Shown piece after piece: positions 7,316 to 59,186 of a stretch of 64,000 bases of DNA. Each line of letters starts with the position of its first letter. Position 1 is the first letter of the stretch. Source of the DNA: Paenirhodobacter populi (GTDB lineage Bacteria; Pseudomonadota; Alphaproteobacteria; Rhodobacterales; Rhodobacteraceae). Below the pieces are notes generated by a model that saw nothing but the letters and a program-made list of their open reading frames with translations, made no database searches and had not been told where the DNA came from. The position numbers were made by a program, and so were the translations under genes. The stretch lies in NCBI RefSeq assembly GCF_004022215.1, contig NZ_SAUZ01000013.1, forward strand, positions 62,001 through 126,000. The letters are read 5' to 3'.

Positions 7316-7491
7316 TCCAGGCGGCTGGAGCGCGTATGATGCCGACATCGCGAAAGCGCCGCCACTTCCGCCAGAGGGGCCCGGTCATCGAACGGAATCC
7401 TGTGTCGGGGCCGGTTCCGGGCACCTGCCGGGGCATCACGGTCTGACACAGCAGCGTGATCCTATCGCGCCGCGCGCGCGCGGGCAACAGG

Positions 7492-9114: not shown

Positions 9115-9240
9115 ATTTCGCGTCCCGTTGAGGTTTCCGGCGACCGCCCGAGGTCTGACTTCCGAAGTTTCGGTTACAGTGGCGCGACCGCGCCGGAATT
9201 GCACCGGCTTCCCGTGCGGTGCCGCCCTTCCATGGTTAGT
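9115..9240 (-). promoter_or_regulatory. cobalamin (B12) riboswitch
   Basis: Read on the minus strand this leader has the conserved order of the adenosylcobalamin riboswitch: GGGAAGCCGGTGCAATTCC, then GGCGCGGTCGCGCCACTGT (base-complement region 9178-9200), and then the GAAGTCAGACCT box at 9151-9162, followed by a GC-rich stem just before cbtB. Binding of the cofactor would reduce expression of the cobalt transporter. Ends are approximate. The element starts about 18 bases after the stop of the gene at 9258, on the same strand. Confidence 0.92.
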
Positions 9241-9257
9241 CGGATGGGGGCGGGCTG

Positions 9258-10160
9258 TCAATTCTTGGTGATTCCGGTCTTGGCGATCCCGGCGCAGGCG
9301 CGAAGCAGGGGCCGGTCGTAGCGCGCCATCCAGTCCTGCGGCGGCGGCGCGCCGGTCAGGAACAGATGCTGGCGCAGCGCGACGCGGATGGTGGCGGTGC
9401 CGTGGCGGTCGGCGGCGATCTCCTCGAACCGGCCTTCGCGCAAAAGGGCAAGGACCCGCTGTTTCAGCAGCCACAGATCCGCCCGCCCGTGGGCGGCGAG
9501 CAGCGCCTGAAAGGCGCGGTGGCGCGCCGGTCCGTCTTCGGCCATCGGATGCGGCGGGAAGACATGCGCGACCGGCGTTTCACCCGGGCGGAGCGGCGTC
9601 GCCCGCGACGGCCCCGCCGTGCCGAGGATCAGCACCGGCACCGGGCCGGGCGGCTGCCACCGCTCGATCCGCGCGATGCCGGCGTCGGTGATCCATGTGC
9701 CGGAAAGGGCGGTCAGCGCGGCCTCGGCCCAGTGCCGCCCGCATAGTGCCAGTATCGCGGGCAGGGAATCGGGATCGGGGCGGAACAGCACCCGGACCAT
9801 GCCGTCGCCTTGCCCCATGTCGAAAACCGGGGCCTCGCGGTCCTCGTCGCGGATCGCGTGGGGGTCGGAGGTCAGGCGGCGGATCGGTTGCGGCTTTGCC
9901 TTCGGGGCGGGGGGCGCGCAGATGGCGATGCCCTGCGTCCAGCCCTGCGGGGTGGAGCTGATCGTCTCGAACGCCAGAAGGGGGGCATCCGCCGCGATGC
10001 GCAGGCGGGCGGGGCCTGCCTCGGCGATCAGGTCCCGCCCCGCGCGCGTCACCGGCCCGGCGGGGGTGAAGCCCATGACGGCGGCGGGGGTGCCGACGCT
10101 CCAGACATGTCCCGGCGCGGCAAGCAGCCCGGCCAGCGTTCCTTCCCTGTCATCCGTCAT
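9258..10160 (-). CDS. conserved hypothetical protein
   Basis: A 300-residue soluble protein with no signal peptide or membrane span and no family I can name with confidence. It has a Pro/Lys linker near residues 82-93 (APPAPKAKPQPIRR) separating an N-terminal part from a larger C-terminal part rich in Trp and Arg. Codon use looks native. It lies directly upstream of the cobalamin riboswitch on the same strand, so read-through could join it to cbtBA. It diverges from the Ldh-family gene with a palindrome between them. Confidence 0.65.
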   Translation of the reverse strand: MTDDREGTLAGLLAAPGHVWSVGTPAAVMGFTPAGPVTRAGRDLIAEAGPARLRIAADAPLLAFETISSTPQGWTQGIAICAPPAPKAKPQPIRRLTSDPHAIRDEDREAPVFDMGQGDGMVRVLFRPDPDSLPAILALCGRHWAEAALTALSGTWITDAGIARIERWQPPGPVPVLILGTAGPSRATPLRPGETPVAHVFPPHPMAEDGPARHRAFQALLAAHGRADLWLLKQRVLALLREGRFEEIAADRHGTATIRVALRQHLFLTGAPPPQDWMARYDRPLLRACAGIAKTGITKN

Positions 10161-13994: not shown

Positions 13995-15230
13995 TCAGAT
14001 CGGTTTGTCTTCGCCCTCGGGCGTGACGACCCGCGACGGCAGCCCGATCCGGCCGAGAAGTTCGAGGAAGGGCCTTGCGGGCAGTTCCTCGACATTGGCC
14101 ATCTTCTTCACGTCCCAGGTGCCTTGGGCGATCAGCAGCGCGGCGGCGACGGGCGGCACGCCGGCGGTGTAGGAAATCCCCTGCGAGCCGACCTCTTCAT
14201 AGGCTTCCTTGTGGTCGGCGACGTTGTAGACGAAGACCTCGGCGTCCTTGCCGTCCTTCGTGCCCTTCACGAAATCGCCGATGCAGGTCTTGCCGGTGTA
14301 TTTGGGCGCGAGGGATGCGGGATCGGGCAGCACCGCCTTGACGACCTTGAGCGGGATGACCTCCTGCCCCTCGGCGGTCTTGACCGGCTGTTCGGACAGC
14401 AGGCCGAGGTTCTTCAGCACGGTGAAGACGTTGATGTAATGGTCGCCGAAGCCCATCCAGAAGCGGATATCGGCATCGGGATAGTTGGCGGACAGGCTGT
14501 GCACCTCGTCATGGCCCGACAGATAGGCCTTCTGCTTGCCGACGACGGGCAGATCCCATTCGCGGCCGACCTCGAACATCTTGTTTTCCTGCCACTTGCC
14601 GCCCTGCCAGGAATAGACCGTGCCGGTGAATTCGCGGAAGTTGATTTCCGGGTCGAAGTTGGTGGCGAAATACTTGCCGTGCGAGCCGGCGTTGATGTCG
14701 ACGATATCGACCGAGGTGACGGAATCCAGATATTCATCCGCCGCGAAGCGCACATAGGCGTTTACCACGCCCGGATCGAAGCCCGCGCCCAGAATCGCCG
14801 TCACGCCCTTTTCGGCGCACAGATCGCGCTTCTTCCATTCGTAGTTGCCATACCACGGCGGCGCCTCGCAGATGCGGTCCGGCTCTTCGTGGATGGCGGT
14901 GTCGATATAGGCGACGCCGGTTTCGATGCAGGCGTCCAGAACGTATTTGTTCACGAAGGCGGAGCCCACGTTGATGACGATCTGCGCCCCGGTTTGGCGG
15001 ATCAGTTCGGCCACCGCCGCCGTATCCATCGCGTTCACCGCGTGGGCCTGGAACGTGCCCGGCACTTTCATCGCGCCCTTTTCATGGACCGAGGCGATGA
15101 TGGCATCGCATTTCGCGCGGGTGCGCGAGGCGATATGCAGGTCACCGAGGATGTCGTTGTGCTGGGCGCATTTGTGGGCAACCACTTGCGCGACACCGCC
15201 GGCACCAATGATGAGCACGTTCTTTTTCAC
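13995..15230 (-). CDS. carboxy(nor)spermidine dehydrogenase (saccharopine-dehydrogenase-like)
   Basis: A 411-residue enzyme that condenses aspartate beta-semialdehyde with putrescine (or diaminopropane) and reduces the imine with NADPH to carboxyspermidine or carboxynorspermidine. The Rossmann motif VLIIGAGGVAQVVAHKCAQ is at residues 5-23. The segments AIHEEPDRICEAPPWYGNYE and GFGDHYINVFTVLKN match this family rather than lysine-forming saccharopine dehydrogenases. It follows the decarboxylase gene by 48 bases and acts just before it in the pathway. In alphaproteobacteria the usual product is spermidine. Confidence 0.9.
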   Translation of the reverse strand: MKKNVLIIGAGGVAQVVAHKCAQHNDILGDLHIASRTRAKCDAIIASVHEKGAMKVPGTFQAHAVNAMDTAAVAELIRQTGAQIVINVGSAFVNKYVLDACIETGVAYIDTAIHEEPDRICEAPPWYGNYEWKKRDLCAEKGVTAILGAGFDPGVVNAYVRFAADEYLDSVTSVDIVDINAGSHGKYFATNFDPEINFREFTGTVYSWQGGKWQENKMFEVGREWDLPVVGKQKAYLSGHDEVHSLSANYPDADIRFWMGFGDHYINVFTVLKNLGLLSEQPVKTAEGQEVIPLKVVKAVLPDPASLAPKYTGKTCIGDFVKGTKDGKDAEVFVYNVADHKEAYEEVGSQGISYTAGVPPVAAALLIAQGTWDVKKMANVEELPARPFLELLGRIGLPSRVVTPEGEDKPI

Positions 15231-18770: not shown

Positions 18771-19913
<1,143 letters not shown>

Positions 19914-25025: not shown

Positions 25026-25205
25026 GTTGCACCAAAGCCCGCCTTCGTGACCGCGGCGCGGAATGTAATTCCATCTGCGAGCGGTCGCGAGCCCGTTTCC
25101 GCGGGCTGATGCTGACACGAAGATCGTCATGAGGAATGGCATTCCCCGATGCGTTTCCCGAACCGGGCTCGGCCCCTCGGCCCCTCGGCCCTTCTGCCTT
25201 TCATC

Positions 25206-25265
25206 TTTCCAAAAATATCCCGGGGGTGAATTTGCGCGTCAGCGCAAAGAGGGGGCTGGCCCCCT
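25206..25265 (-). repeat. 3'-end hairpin repeat, copy A
   Basis: Read on minus: AGGGGGC-CA-GCCCCCT hairpin, then TTTGCGC-N4-GCGCAAA, then CCCCCGGGATATTT and GGAAAG. It follows the class III aminotransferase gene (stop 25357) with the same polarity, beyond that gene's own terminator. The rest of the 353-base gap (25026-25200) contains only small hairpins and no gene I can support. Confidence 0.85.
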
Positions 25266-30718: not shown

Positions 30719-30735
30719 CCCGCCTTCCCCCTTCA

Positions 30736-30792
30736 TTCTTCCATAAATATCCCGGGGGGTGAGCGCGGCACGCGCGAGGGGGCTGGCCCCCT
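30736..30792 (-). repeat. 3'-end hairpin repeat, copy B
   Basis: Read on minus: AGGGGGC-CA-GCCCCCT, a GCGCG...CGCGC-type stem, then CCCCCCGGGATATTTATGGAAG. It lies 17 bases after the cobS stop, but its polarity is opposite to cobS, which makes it the one exception in the family of eight. The remainder of the 229-base gap before 30948 shows no gene. Confidence 0.85.
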
Positions 30793-36728: not shown

Positions 36729-37847
36729 ATGCAGCGGATCCTCAACACCCTGCGCCTGACGGCCAAGGAATTGCGCGCCATCGCCCGCGACGTGGTGATG
36801 CTGGTGCTGATCGCCTATGTCTTCACCGTGTCGACCTACATGGTCGCGGATGCGATCTCGACCGAGGTGGATCATCTGGCCGTCGCCGTCATCGACGAGG
36901 ATCAGAGCATCCTGTCCGCCCGCCTGACCGATTCGATCCAGCCGCCGCTGTTCAAATCCCCCGACATGATCGCCGCGGATCAGGCCCTGCAGGCGCAGAA
37001 GGACGGGAAATACATCCTCGTCGTCGATTTCCCGCCCGACATGGAGCGCGACCTGAAGGCCGGGCGGTCGGTGACGATCAACATCGACGTGGATGCGACC
37101 GCCGTGGCCCATGCCGGCAATGGCGCCGCCTTCATGAGCCAGATGCTCGGGCAGGAGATCACCCGCTATTTCAGCCCCTCGGCGGTGGATGGTTCGCAGA
37201 TCGACGTGGTGTTCCGCAGCTTCTACAACCCGAACCTGACCTCGAAATGGTTCACCTCGGTGATGCAGCTGATGAACTCGATCACCATCCTGACGCTGAT
37301 CCTAGCCGGGGCCTCGCTGATCCGGGAACGGGAACACGGCACGATCGAGCATGTGCTGGTCATGCCGGTGCGGCCGCCCGAGATCGTCGTGTCGAAGATC
37401 CTTGCGAACGGGCTGGTGATCCTGATCGCGGCGGTGTTCAGCCTGATCGTGGTGGTGGAATGGCTGCTGGCGGTGCCGGTGAGCGGCTCGGTCCTGCTGT
37501 TCGTTCTGGGCACGGCGCTTTACGTGATCGCGCTGGCGAGCCTCGGGCTTCTGCTGGCGACGTTCACGAAGAACATGGGGCAATACGGGTTGCTGGTGAT
37601 CCCGGTGATCGTGGTGATGATCCTGTTGTCGGGGGGGATCACGCCGCTGGAATCGATGCCCGGCTTCCTGCAGGTCGCGATCCGCATCCTCAGCCCGGCA
37701 CCGCATTTCGTCGCCTTCGCGCAATCCGTGCTATATCGCGGCAGTGGCATCGGGCTGGTCTGGCCGGAAATGGCGACGATGGCGGCGATGGCGGTGTTCA
37801 CCTTTTCCGTCACGCTCATGCGGTTCCGCAAGGTTCTTTCCGGATAG
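36729..37847 (+). CDS. ABC-2 type permease (YhhJ-like)
   Basis: 372 residues with an N-terminal span, a large extracytoplasmic domain (about 45-175), then five or six C-terminal spans and the ABC-2 motif LAGASLIREREHGTIEHVLVMPV. It pairs with the permease half of the RbbA-like protein. AGGAGG precedes the ATG, which starts one base after the RbbA stop. Third gene of the HlyD/RbbA/YhhJ operon. Confidence 0.92.
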   Translation: MQRILNTLRLTAKELRAIARDVVMLVLIAYVFTVSTYMVADAISTEVDHLAVAVIDEDQSILSARLTDSIQPPLFKSPDMIAADQALQAQKDGKYILVVDFPPDMERDLKAGRSVTINIDVDATAVAHAGNGAAFMSQMLGQEITRYFSPSAVDGSQIDVVFRSFYNPNLTSKWFTSVMQLMNSITILTLILAGASLIREREHGTIEHVLVMPVRPPEIVVSKILANGLVILIAAVFSLIVVVEWLLAVPVSGSVLLFVLGTALYVIALASLGLLLATFTKNMGQYGLLVIPVIVVMILLSGGITPLESMPGFLQVAIRILSPAPHFVAFAQSVLYRGSGIGLVWPEMATMAAMAVFTFSVTLMRFRKVLSG

Positions 37848-37852
37848 GGCGC

Positions 37853-37913
37853 AGGGGGCCAGCCCCCTCTTTGCGCATCCGCGCAAATTCACCCCCGGGA
37901 TATTTGGGGAAAG
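37853..37913 (+). repeat. 3'-end hairpin repeat, copy C
   Basis: AGGGGGC-CA-GCCCCCT starts only five bases after the permease stop. TTTGCGC-N4-GCGCAAA follows, then CACCCCCGGGATATTTGG and GGAAAG. It has the same polarity as the gene it follows and faces copy D across an 80-base gap. Confidence 0.88.
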
Positions 37914-37993
37914 ATGAAAGGATCTACCCGTTCGGGGCAAAATGGGTCACGGCGTCGCCCGCGCGGGCCTTTCACGATATTTCCTGTTTCGGC

Positions 37994-38043
37994 TTTCCCC
38001 AAATATCCCGGGGGAGCGCGGAATGCGCGGGGGCAGCGCCCCC
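37994..38043 (-). repeat. 3'-end hairpin repeat, copy D
   Basis: Read on minus: GGGGGC-GCT-GCCCCC, then GCGC-ATTCC-GCGC, then CTCCCCCGGGATATTTGG and GGAAAG. The first base of the hairpin is the last base of the pepT stop codon, so the structure begins exactly where translation ends. Confidence 0.88.
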
Positions 38044-39272
38044 TACGCCCGTGCCGCCAGTCCGACGAGCCTCAGGCAGACCCGCGTTGCCGCCGCCATG
38101 TCCTGCACCGAGATCCATTCGAGCGGCCCGTGGATGTCCTGCATGCCGGTGAAGACATTGGGGCAGGGCACGCCCATTTCCGTCAGTCGCGAGCCGTCGG
38201 TGCCGCCACGGATCGGGTTGGAGACGGGCTCGATCCCCTCGGCGCGGCAGGCGTCGTGGGCAAGCGTCACCGGCGTCATGTCCTTTTCCAGCCAGTAGCG
38301 CATGTTGCGGTATTGGGGGCGGATCTCGCAGGTCACGGTGGCGCGGGGTTCGGTGGCGGCCACCGCCGCGCAGACCTGTTTCAGCATCTCGCCCCGCGCG
38401 GCGAGGCCGTCGAGTTCGAAATCGCGCAGGATGATCGACATATCGACCTCCGCCGCCGTGCCCTTCATCGCGTGGATGTGCCAGAAGCCGTCGCGGCCGC
38501 CGGTGACCTCGGGCGTCTGGGTGGCCTGCGGCAGGGTGTCGATGATCTTCGCCGCCAGATGCAGGGCGTTGACCATCTTGCCCTGCGCCGTGCCGGTATG
38601 GGTGGAAACGCCGGAGACCCGCACCTTGGCCCCGTCGGCGGAAAAGGTTTCGTATTCCACCTCGCCCACCGCGCCGCCGTCGAAGGTATAGGCGAAATCG
38701 ACGCCGAGATCGGCGGGCAGGCGCGGATCGACGCCACGGCCGATTTCCTCGTCAGGTGTGAAGGCGATGCGCAGTTTCGGGCGCGGCGCGCCGGAGGCGA
38801 TCAGCTCCCGCACCGCGGTCATGATGACCGCCACGCCCGCCTTGTCATCCGCGCCCAGCAGTGTTGTGCCCGAGGCGGTGATGATGTCATGCCCCACCTT
38901 CGTCGCCAGATAGGGCGAATGTTCCGGCGTCAGCACCAGCACGCTGTCGGGATAGGTGATCGCGCCGCCGTTGTAGCCCCGGATCACGCGCGGCTTCACC
39001 CCCGTGGCATTATAGGCGGGTGCCGTGTCCATATGCGCCAGAAGCCCGATCACCGGACCCTCCGCCGTGCCCGGCACCGTCGCCAGAACCGCCCCGTAAT
39101 CGGTGATCGTCACATCCCCGGCCCCCGCCGCGCGCAGCTCATCGGCCAGCATCTTTGTAAGGTTCAGCTGGATCTCGGTCGAAGGCTGGCTCGCCGATCC
39201 CTCGTCGCTTTGCGTATCCACGGAACAATAGCGGACAAGGCGGTCTTCAAGCTCGCGGTCGAATTGGGTCAT
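38043..39272 (-). CDS. pepT: peptidase T (tripeptide aminopeptidase)
   Basis: A 409-residue M20-family zinc aminopeptidase that releases the N-terminal residue of tripeptides. The zinc ligands sit in LAHMDTAPAYN (His-x-Asp), GADDKAGVAVIM (Asp) and TPDEEIGRGVD (Glu pair), with HTGTAQGKMVNALHLA in the dimer/lid region. AGGAGG lies upstream of the ATG at 39272. The gene ends against repeat D. Confidence 0.95.
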   Translation of the reverse strand: MTQFDRELEDRLVRYCSVDTQSDEGSASQPSTEIQLNLTKMLADELRAAGAGDVTITDYGAVLATVPGTAEGPVIGLLAHMDTAPAYNATGVKPRVIRGYNGGAITYPDSVLVLTPEHSPYLATKVGHDIITASGTTLLGADDKAGVAVIMTAVRELIASGAPRPKLRIAFTPDEEIGRGVDPRLPADLGVDFAYTFDGGAVGEVEYETFSADGAKVRVSGVSTHTGTAQGKMVNALHLAAKIIDTLPQATQTPEVTGGRDGFWHIHAMKGTAAEVDMSIILRDFELDGLAARGEMLKQVCAAVAATEPRATVTCEIRPQYRNMRYWLEKDMTPVTLAHDACRAEGIEPVSNPIRGGTDGSRLTEMGVPCPNVFTGMQDIHGPLEWISVQDMAAATRVCLRLVGLAARA

Positions 39273-42174: not shown

Positions 42175-42239
42175 GGGGGGCGCTGCCCCCCGTCTTCATT
42201 TCATGAAGACTCCCCCCGGGATATTTATGGAAAAACGAC
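42175..42239 (+). repeat. 3'-end hairpin repeat, copy E
   Basis: GGGGGG-CGCTG-CCCCCC begins 21 bases after the aroQ stop. It is followed by GTCTTCAT-TTC-ATGAAGAC and then CCCCCCGGGATATTTATGGA with a run of A. These 65 bases are identical, inverted, to copy H at 59122-59186. Confidence 0.92.
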
Positions 42240-42375
42240 GGCCATTAAGGATTTAGTCACCACGTCGGGCAATTCTGGAGATGCGGAACAGGCGGGGACG
42301 CCGATGACCGTGAAAGACGACGGTTCCGGCCCGGCTTCGCCTGGCGTCCCGGGTCGGGCCATTCCTGCTTTCGTG

Positions 42376-42420
42376 TTTCCATAAATATCCCACGGGGGTG
42401 CGGGGGTGTGAAACCCCCGC
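42376..42420 (-). repeat. 3'-end hairpin repeat, copy F (degenerate)
   Basis: On minus, one hairpin (GCGGGGGTTTCACACCCCCG) replaces the usual two, followed by CACCCCCGTGGGATATTTATGG. It starts 18 bases after the stop of the glutamine synthetase-like gene. The inserted T in CCCGTGGG and loss of a stem suggest decay or a short variant. Confidence 0.75.
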
Positions 42421-50966: not shown

Positions 50967-51077
50967 CCGGAGGTATGCCCCTCCGGTCCCTGTTCTGTGA
51001 CGGGGATCGCCACCAGTCAGCGCGTCGCGCCCACTGGTGCGCTTGTCGTTTGCCGCGCGGGCTTTCGCCCCCGCATG
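50967..51077 (+). other. structured leader upstream of ffh
   Basis: Three successive hairpins: CCGGAGG-N6-CCTCCGG (50967-50986); CACCAGT ... ACTGGTG with an inner GCGCG/CGCGC stem (51011-51039); and a GCGC-GGGC/GCCC-CCGC stem with one mismatch (about 51056-51074). They end just before the ffh ribosome-binding site. I see no 4.5S SRP RNA core here. Role unknown; it could control ffh or be an untranslated small RNA. Confidence 0.5.
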
Positions 51078-53967: not shown

Positions 53968-54020
53968 AGGGGGCCAGCCCCCTCGCGCATTCTGCGCTCA
54001 CCCCCGGGATATTTATGGAA
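53968..54020 (+). repeat. 3'-end hairpin repeat, copy G
   Basis: AGGGGGC-CA-GCCCCCT, then GCGC-ATTCT-GCGC, then CACCCCCGGGATATTTATGG and AAGAATG. It follows rpsP, in the same direction, in the 247-base gap before rimM. Confidence 0.88.
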
Positions 54021-54082
54021 GAATGAAGACAGGCCGTTTATCCGGGCGGTTCTGAAATACGCTCCTGATGCAGGGGGAGAGA

Positions 54083-59099: not shown

Positions 59100-59121
59100 A
59101 CCGTCCCCGGGGCATCTGCCT

Positions 59122-59186
59122 GTCGTTTTTCCATAAATATCCCGGGGGGAGTCTTCATGAAATGAAGACGGGGGGCAGCGCCCCCC
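59122..59186 (-). repeat. 3'-end hairpin repeat, copy H
   Basis: Identical over 65 bases to copy E, inverted. Read on minus it follows the dapA stop by 29 bases: GGGGGG-CGCTG-CCCCCC, GTCTTCAT-TTC-ATGAAGAC, CCCCCCGGGATATTTATGGA and a run of A. Confidence 0.92.

Follow-up and report, generated by a model that had tools for sequence, protein, structure and literature searches.

REP and BIME sequences of enterobacteria and pseudomonads are palindromes dispersed in hundreds of copies through intergenic DNA, where they form inverted pairs, avoid divergent gaps and can act at mRNA 3' ends. The REP hairpin has a conserved tetranucleotide of the GTAG/GGAG type at its foot, and for the BIMEs of E. coli a role as sites of gyrase- or nucleoid-type proteins has been proposed. 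The DNA uptake sequences of Neisseriaceae are very dense short words, recognised by the uptake machinery, that form terminators, differ as dialects between lineages and stand as inverted pairs at gene ends. MITEs are characterised by terminal inverted repeats, a target-site duplication and a transposase acting in trans.

The element described here has eight copies in a 64,000-nt stretch of the Paenirhodobacter populi genome (the window, meaning the whole stretch analysed). Like REP/BIME sequences, it occurs as hundreds of dispersed intergenic palindromic copies that form inverted pairs and are rare in divergent gaps; unlike them, it has two or three hairpins together with a 25-nt non-palindromic core and tail, is spread family-wide in dialects, shows no linkage between its second hairpin (hairpin 2) and its tail, and has no Y1/RAYT transposase match in P. 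populi. Because no cognate transposase was found, we do not file it as a REP. With Neisseriaceae uptake sequences it shares a short conserved word, hundreds of copies, inverted gene-end pairs and lineage dialects; here, however, the word is embedded in a multi-hairpin element and its density is lower (179 copies in 1.65 Mb). CcsR1 and other Rhodobacter RNAs in Rfam come from the same host family, and none matches any window copy at gathering score. With intrinsic terminators, including the 'hairpin cluster' type of Gupta and Pal 2021 (PMC8355165), the element has in common G-C hairpins, often paired, right behind stop codons; it differs from them in having a fixed downstream motif, in being nearly orientation-neutral and in lacking a U-tract, for which reason we do not class it as an intrinsic terminator.

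Altogether, we consider it about an even bet (probability roughly 0.5) that this is a REP/BIME-like chromosomal repeat, found throughout the Rhodobacteraceae, that serves, for the most part where genes converge, as an orientation-tolerant transcription-end element. Neither Rfam nor the literature matches listed, those found by sequence words included, held a description of it or a named element with another role; subscription journals lay mostly outside this search, and a name may exist.

Eight copies in the window and the anatomy of the element

A search of the window for the core GGGATATTTRKGG, allowing at most 2 mismatches, gave 10 matches against 1.67 expected, a number reached in none of 100 shuffles. 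Eight of them are the copies that an earlier note on this DNA had listed, each of which was recovered at its place, seven exactly and one at 25209 with 1 mismatch (GGGATATTTTTGG); the remaining two, at 14478 and 29105, have 2 mismatches each. The copies are as follows.

Copy A, 25197..25265 (-): hairpin 1, a 7-bp hairpin 2, C5, core GGGATATTTTTGG and tail; convergent gap between a dalA gene (+) and an aminotransferase gene (-)
Copy B, 30729..30792 (-): tandem gap after 30718; the sole window copy antisense to both flanking genes
Copy C, 37853..37921 (+): AGGGGGCCAGCCCCC hairpin 1, TTTGCGC/GCGCAAA hairpin 2, C5, GGGATATTTGGGG core and tail; begins 5 nt past the stop of an ABC-permease gene (RbbA-related)
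Copy D, 37985..38043 (-): faces copy C, beside pepT
Copy E, 42175..42242 (+): after aroQ; faces copy F
Copy F, 42367..42420 (-): after a glutamine-synthetase-like gene; a single larger hairpin
Copy G, 53968..54030 (+): tandem gap, sense; an ordinary G-C hairpin lies upstream
Copy H, 59119..59186 (-): convergent gap between a ParA-like gene (+) and the dapA gene (-)

The order of hairpin 1, hairpin 2, C-run and core given in the earlier note applies to seven of the eight copies and breaks down in copy F (42379(-)), with its one larger hairpin. In the window, hairpin 1 is mostly of the GGGGG-CCAG-CCCCC or GCGCTG type, and the C-run is followed by GGGATATTT, two variable bases, GGAA and a short purine-rich tail. 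Copies E and H, 17 kb apart, are identical in hairpin 1, hairpin 2, core and AAAAACGAC tail and make the window's strongest case for a copying or conversion event. Beside the gene end of copy F (the same end by its last codons), the congener G115 carries an inverted pair with its own tail, and copy G is missing at the orthologous gap in two congeners.

Copies C and D indeed stand face to face between two convergent genes, the RbbA-related permease gene and pepT, and copy D does start, as proposed, with the closing G of the pepT stop codon TAG, at 38043. The region 37848-38046 folds into one long hairpin (-119.1 kcal/mol, z -7.8, 0 of 200 shuffles). A terminator scan of 37600-38300 returned a single match, at 38264, and nothing at copies C or D, bearing out the claim that they have no U-tract. 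Above threshold, Rfam families in the window comprise an ffh sRNA at 50996-51047 (+), a terC RNA at 7334-7392 (-) and a cobalamin riboswitch at 9129-9269 (-), with no family at gathering score on any copy; within 37700-38200, where all matches to E 10 were inspected, the top sub-threshold one is Corio-PBP (E 3.8), and CcsR1 stands at E 9.8.

Read 5' to 3', the repeat consists of G-C hairpin 1, hairpin 2, the C-run, RRR-TATTT, about 10 nt and GAAR, over some 60-90 nt in all. Conservation extends from about 12 nt 5' of hairpin 1 to 30 nt past the core start and has sharp edges; no convincing conserved sequence was found upstream of the element, and the strongest downstream 7-mers are those of a facing copy. 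Hairpin 2 was parsed in 174 of 179 P. populi copies, 148 of which have 12-27 nt between hairpin 1 and the C-run. These 148 copies hold 63 distinct hairpin 2 sequences, with a stem of at least 4 bp in 62 and at least 5 bp in 53, as opposed to 63% and 40%, respectively, of chimeras of two copies (n = 284). Among 19 distinct versions of 18 nt, two-sided changes occur at all five pairs and pairing holds in 97.9% of cells; the covariation score reaches 0.360 versus 0.079 in shuffles (0 of 500 as high), and the bare count of five pairs with two-sided change was equalled in 63 of 500. Hairpin 2 is variable, with compensatory changes; the test kept hairpin 1 constant and is uninformative on it. Single copies fold no better than shuffles in this G+C-rich sequence (z -2.2 to +0.9 over five stretches, three of them cut inside hairpin 1). 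A sub-family of P. populi copies, alike among themselves, carries a long extra stem-loop (for example with a TTCCACTGGAA apex) between hairpin 1 and core (C1:127532, 285140, 320137 and 272137; C2:5940, 23026, 48249 and 121263).

The tail of the P. populi element comes in five discrete words (GAATGA 49, ACACGA 43, AGATGA 38, AAACGA 34, AGCCGA 7; other 4). Tail word and hairpin 2 are unlinked (mutual information 0.365 versus 0.346 +/- 0.061 in shuffles, for 92 copies with a hairpin 2 seen at least 3 times, out of 170 with a named tail). Hairpin 1 is weakly linked to the tail (0.347 versus 0.287; 45 of 2000 shuffles) and clearly linked to hairpin 2 (0.695 versus 0.449; 0 of 2000). Whole-element duplication does not account for the free combination of hairpin 2 with tails, which might instead arise by local conversion or independent selection. 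We tentatively entertain the possibility that the element is a modular gene-end signal with a dedicated candidate trans-acting factor, constituting a non-canonical bidirectional terminator class specific to Rhodobacteraceae; hairpin 2 and the tail word would then be two independent vocabularies that combine freely within about 80 nt.

Placement, polarity and U-tract terminators

Across the whole P. populi genome, the core 13-mer has 294 exact copies (150 on the + strand, 144 on the - strand), and the reversed pattern has none. We surveyed 1,653,424 bases in detail (35% of the genome; 1418 CDS by a Markov caller, 19 tRNAs), using a position matrix trained on 87 copies with exact GGGATATTT. It gave 182 matches above 8 bits, 179 of them above 25 bits and three at 8-25 bits: copies are either intact or absent, and decayed ones are almost nil. 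Since the matrix was trained on exact GGGATATTT, the conservation of the core is partly selected in; the score gap is not. Of the 179 copies, 175 lie in gaps between called genes and the other four near stretch ends, inside no called gene.

Placement relative to genes is far from random. Among gaps of at least 100 bp, those with a copy make up 78 of the 112 convergent gaps, 51 of the 331 tandem gaps and 9 of the 186 divergent gaps (convergent versus tandem, p 5e-26; tandem versus divergent, p 3e-4). Together with the absence of a U-tract directly after its hairpins, this supports the earlier view of a gene 3'-end element that is not an ordinary intrinsic terminator. The congener G024, surveyed over 994,588 bases with 914 genes including tRNAs, has 56 copies by a looser pattern, 54 of them intergenic, and the corresponding counts are 19 of 44, 18 of 179 and 0 of 129. 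In P. populi, 18 of 19 tRNA genes have no adjoining copy, and the other has a sense copy 183 nt downstream, inside a 3.2-kb stretch without called genes. Copies are absent from the 140 kb of contig C3, 60 kb of C14 and 20 kb of C6 that were covered, and 60 kb of C13 holds one. C14 has a RepA-like match, below the curated cut-off, and lacks copies, so plasmid-like contigs may be element-free; C3 and C6 gave no replicon evidence.

A shared polarity toward the gene, also claimed in the earlier note, does not survive. Seven of the eight window copies follow a gene in sense, and six of these seven owe this 'correct' polarity to sitting in convergent gaps, where a copy lies behind a gene whichever way it points. 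In the 1.65 Mb surveyed, copies in tandem gaps number 36 sense and 31 antisense (binomial p 0.63), those alone in a convergent gap 33 '+' and 34 '-', and polarity as a defining feature is ruled out on 175 copies. Whatever their orientation, most tandem copies lie closer to the stop before them than to the start after them (24 of 36 sense, 25 of 31 antisense). Orientation relative to replication, judged by GC skew (p 0.12), and differences in polarity between subfamilies were not significant. In two-copy gaps the arrangement is always inverted and never direct, in 26 of 26 P. populi pairs (16 face to face, 10 back to back, the latter with cores 153-182 nt apart in 9 of 10) and in 11 of 11 in G024, where all are face to face with cores 49-66 nt apart in 10 of 11. 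The ten back-to-back P. populi pairs share tail words more often than expected (6 versus 2.2). Pooled over both species, the excess of face-to-face pairs (27 versus 10, p 0.008) amounts to a mild sense preference; G024 tandem copies divide into 14 sense and 8 antisense, and sense copies follow the stop closely, with a median free room of 15.5 nt in P. populi and 0 nt in G024. What the element marks is thus the 3' end of genes, chiefly of convergent ones, almost irrespective of which way it points itself. The 36:31 tandem split, which is not expected of a sense-only terminator, counts against the orientation-tolerant terminator reading.

The same split bears on a role in RNA 3'-end processing or stabilisation, in which the hairpins would protect the 3' end of the mRNA and the RUAUUU core behind them would be a putative RNase E-type site. 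RNase E prefers to cleave at RN|WUU. The core fits this preference, the hairpins directly precede it, and TATTT or TACTT is kept in all dialects seen, partly through the search patterns; RNase E sites of R. sphaeroides are AU-rich according to PMC6238624, where a preference for U at +2 is cited. Such a role, however, needs the sense orientation, and with tandem copies at 36 sense to 31 antisense in P. populi and 14 to 8 in G024 we regard it as quite unlikely.

Random orientation would also follow if the repeat were merely tolerated, that is, if it were a REP-like repeat without host function at its sites, copied by some agent and accepted in gene 3' spaces only. The layout that the earlier note called REP-like (dispersed, intergenic, in inverted pairs) stands and would suit this explanation, as would the near-random tandem polarity, the exclusively inverted pairs (26/26 and 11/11), a roughly doubled copy density relative to the congener (179 in 1.65 Mb versus 56 in 0.99 Mb, by different patterns) and the five discrete tail words of P. 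populi. The transposase that had been suggested along with it did not turn up: the Y1/RAYT family PF01797 has 0 matches in the P. populi draft (91 contigs), as against control matches in 5 of 14 genomes. Copying of whole elements would, moreover, not be expected to leave hairpin 2 and tail unlinked, nor does the explanation sit well with the near-absence of decayed copies or with the retention described below, and we consider it rather unlikely.

Canonical U-tract terminators are moderately depleted at element-bearing gene ends, with 23 versus 39.0 +/- 5.3 expected in P. populi (z -3.0) and 3 versus 10.6 +/- 2.5 in G024 (z -3.1), in a test that matched ends on free length as well as on the cut left by excising the element (195 of 223 and 40 of 66 ends, respectively, could be matched). 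Under strict thresholds the figures are 16 versus 21.9 +/- 4.2 (z -1.4) and 1 versus 7.2 +/- 2.2 (z -2.8). Depletion occurs mainly in convergent gaps and extends to ends with an antisense copy only (P. populi convergent, 4 versus 11.3 expected); P. populi sense tandem ends show none (8 observed versus 6.2), nor does matching on the room before the element only (13 versus 10.7 in P. populi, 2 versus 3.4 in G024). A much stronger depletion from a masked test was set aside as biased by room, and mutual exclusion was rejected, the other tests being confounded by the elements' own hairpins or unmatched for cuts; at certain gene ends a U-tract terminator and an element occur together. Visual inspection of 14 one-sided orthologous gaps showed, in three of them, a G-C hairpin with a U-tract in the element-free species (P. 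populi at C1 307591 and C11 10437, with elements in G024; G024 opposite two elements at P. populi C11 39565). At window position 19913 the canonical terminator of the + gene is kept in both species, with an additional element for the - gene in G024, and the remaining 10 of the 14 gaps show no clear replacement.

Such moderate substitution of terminators is not predicted if the element, lying between convergent genes, is bound as DNA by a gyrase- or nucleoid-type protein that would relieve positive supercoils, by analogy to the BIME proposal. Orientation neutrality, the convergent preference, inverted pairs and a strict core with species dialects would all accord with a DNA site; yet the compensatory changes in hairpin 2 are simpler at the RNA level, though a DNA cruciform would give them too, and no such protein is known. 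We judge this quite unlikely as well.

Retention and tail dialects among relatives

Between the congeners G115 and G024, DNA identity around the copies is 94-98%. The flanks of all 12 copies found in 200 kb of G115 are present in G024 and 10 copies align unbroken, with no clean single-copy insertion among the 12 in this one direction of comparison (G115 to G024), which speaks against tolerated copying; set beside the hallmarks of MITEs, the element combines sharp conservation edges with no clean insertion difference at these copies. At a glutamine-synthetase gene end, G024 lacks about 69 bp of G115 that include two facing cores, probably through loss of the palindrome centre (G024:C49 at about 115.52 kb versus G115:C51 at 74.80-74.86 kb, with a junction overlap of about 10 nt).

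Over the longer distance between P. populi and G024, 159 orthologous gaps carry a copy in both species in 8 cases, in P. populi only in 11, in G024 only in 4 and in neither in 136 (Fisher p 3.4e-6). Retention holds for tandem gaps (3 both, 7 P. populi only, 1 G024 only, 93 neither; p 0.0025), again not as expected of a functionless repeat, and is not significant for convergent gaps alone (5, 3, 3 and 7, in the same order; p 0.34). Both species have the three shared tandem copies in sense, and the seven P. populi-only tandem gaps comprise 3 sense, 3 antisense and 1 with both, numbers too small to bear on polarity. At all eight shared gaps each species has its own tails; copies are best read as evolving in concert.

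A dialect-free signature, CCCCNRRRTATTTN10GAAR, which overlooks P. populi copies with a GAC tail, marks 151 of the 196 Rhodobacteraceae genomes, in 74 of 87 genera, and its control has 4 matches in all. Class-wide it occurs in 6 of 240 genomes, two of them Rhodobacteraceae; the single matches in 4 of the 237 class genomes outside the family are background; the control likewise gives three single matches. Two genomes of other families (G310:C247:556-582 and G434:C83:2639-2665) contain one identical 27-nt signature match, once each. At the level of the order, the window dialect in relaxed form, CCCCGGRRTATTT, is found in 240 of 292 genomes (103 of 112 genera), with at most 2 reversed-control matches per genome.

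Where match positions were listed, each genome keeps to an almost uniform tail that differs from those of other genomes: nnnCCAAGATGAAG in G023, nnnACCCAAAGAAG in G078, nnnCCAATAAGAAA in G174, nGGGCAAGATGAAA in G024 and ATGGAAnAnGA in P. populi. Some genomes have two or three tails, each tending to accompany its own RRR, and TATTT or TACTT is present in every dialect seen, in part because of the search patterns. A search with the relaxed window dialect finds 341 copies in P. populi versus 46 and 38 in two congeners; a lineage-specific explosion of copies was nevertheless dismissed as mostly a dialect artefact, for the congeners use CCCCCGAGGTATTT...CAAGATGAA and the dialect-free signature counts 212 versus 102 and 105. 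If a dedicated factor reads the tail, then the rewriting of the tail word genome-wide in each lineage, with the sites staying put, would mean that recognition and hundreds of sites co-evolve.

Among 80 loci with a pepT orthologue, a loose pattern marks 23 elements in 17 (reversed control 0 in 400 kb), of which L150 8381 looks spurious. At seven loci, from Cypionkella, Fuscibacter and relatives, an element lies 30-45 nt past the pepT end, antisense to pepT (L160 8275, L166 8253, L169 5483, L175 8275, L177 8253, L178 8275, L190 8287); L160 has GGGATACTT where the window has GGGATATTT. In 46 of the 80 (L111-L156), the patterns mark no core within 230 nt past the pepT stop, and L127 carries a related TATTTGGACCAAGATGAA word after pepT. 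The gene beyond pepT is unconserved among the relatives inspected.

Possible mode of action and significance

We infer that the element ends transcription, and that it may do so as follows, although the stabiliser and Rho-related roles raised in the earlier note would look the same as termination at the level of sequence. A transcript arriving from either direction would contain two very stable G-C hairpins, which could stall RNA polymerase and/or block 3'-to-5' exonucleases. Because such hairpins would act in either direction, one copy between convergent genes could end both transcripts, and two inverted copies would form one long hairpin. The strictly kept RRR-TATTT and the tail would be the recognised part, serving perhaps as a site for a protein or for RNase E-type cleavage, or as an A/T-only stretch that destabilises the RNA-DNA hybrid.

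The literature searched yielded no account of how most transcripts end in the high-G+C Rhodobacteraceae, a family that includes major marine bacteria and the photosynthesis model Rhodobacter. An abundant U-less element of this kind, present in 78 of the 112 longer convergent gaps of P. populi, would alter terminator annotation for the family. Finally, if the tail is read by a factor, the dialects would provide a natural test of joint change between one factor and its hundreds of sites.
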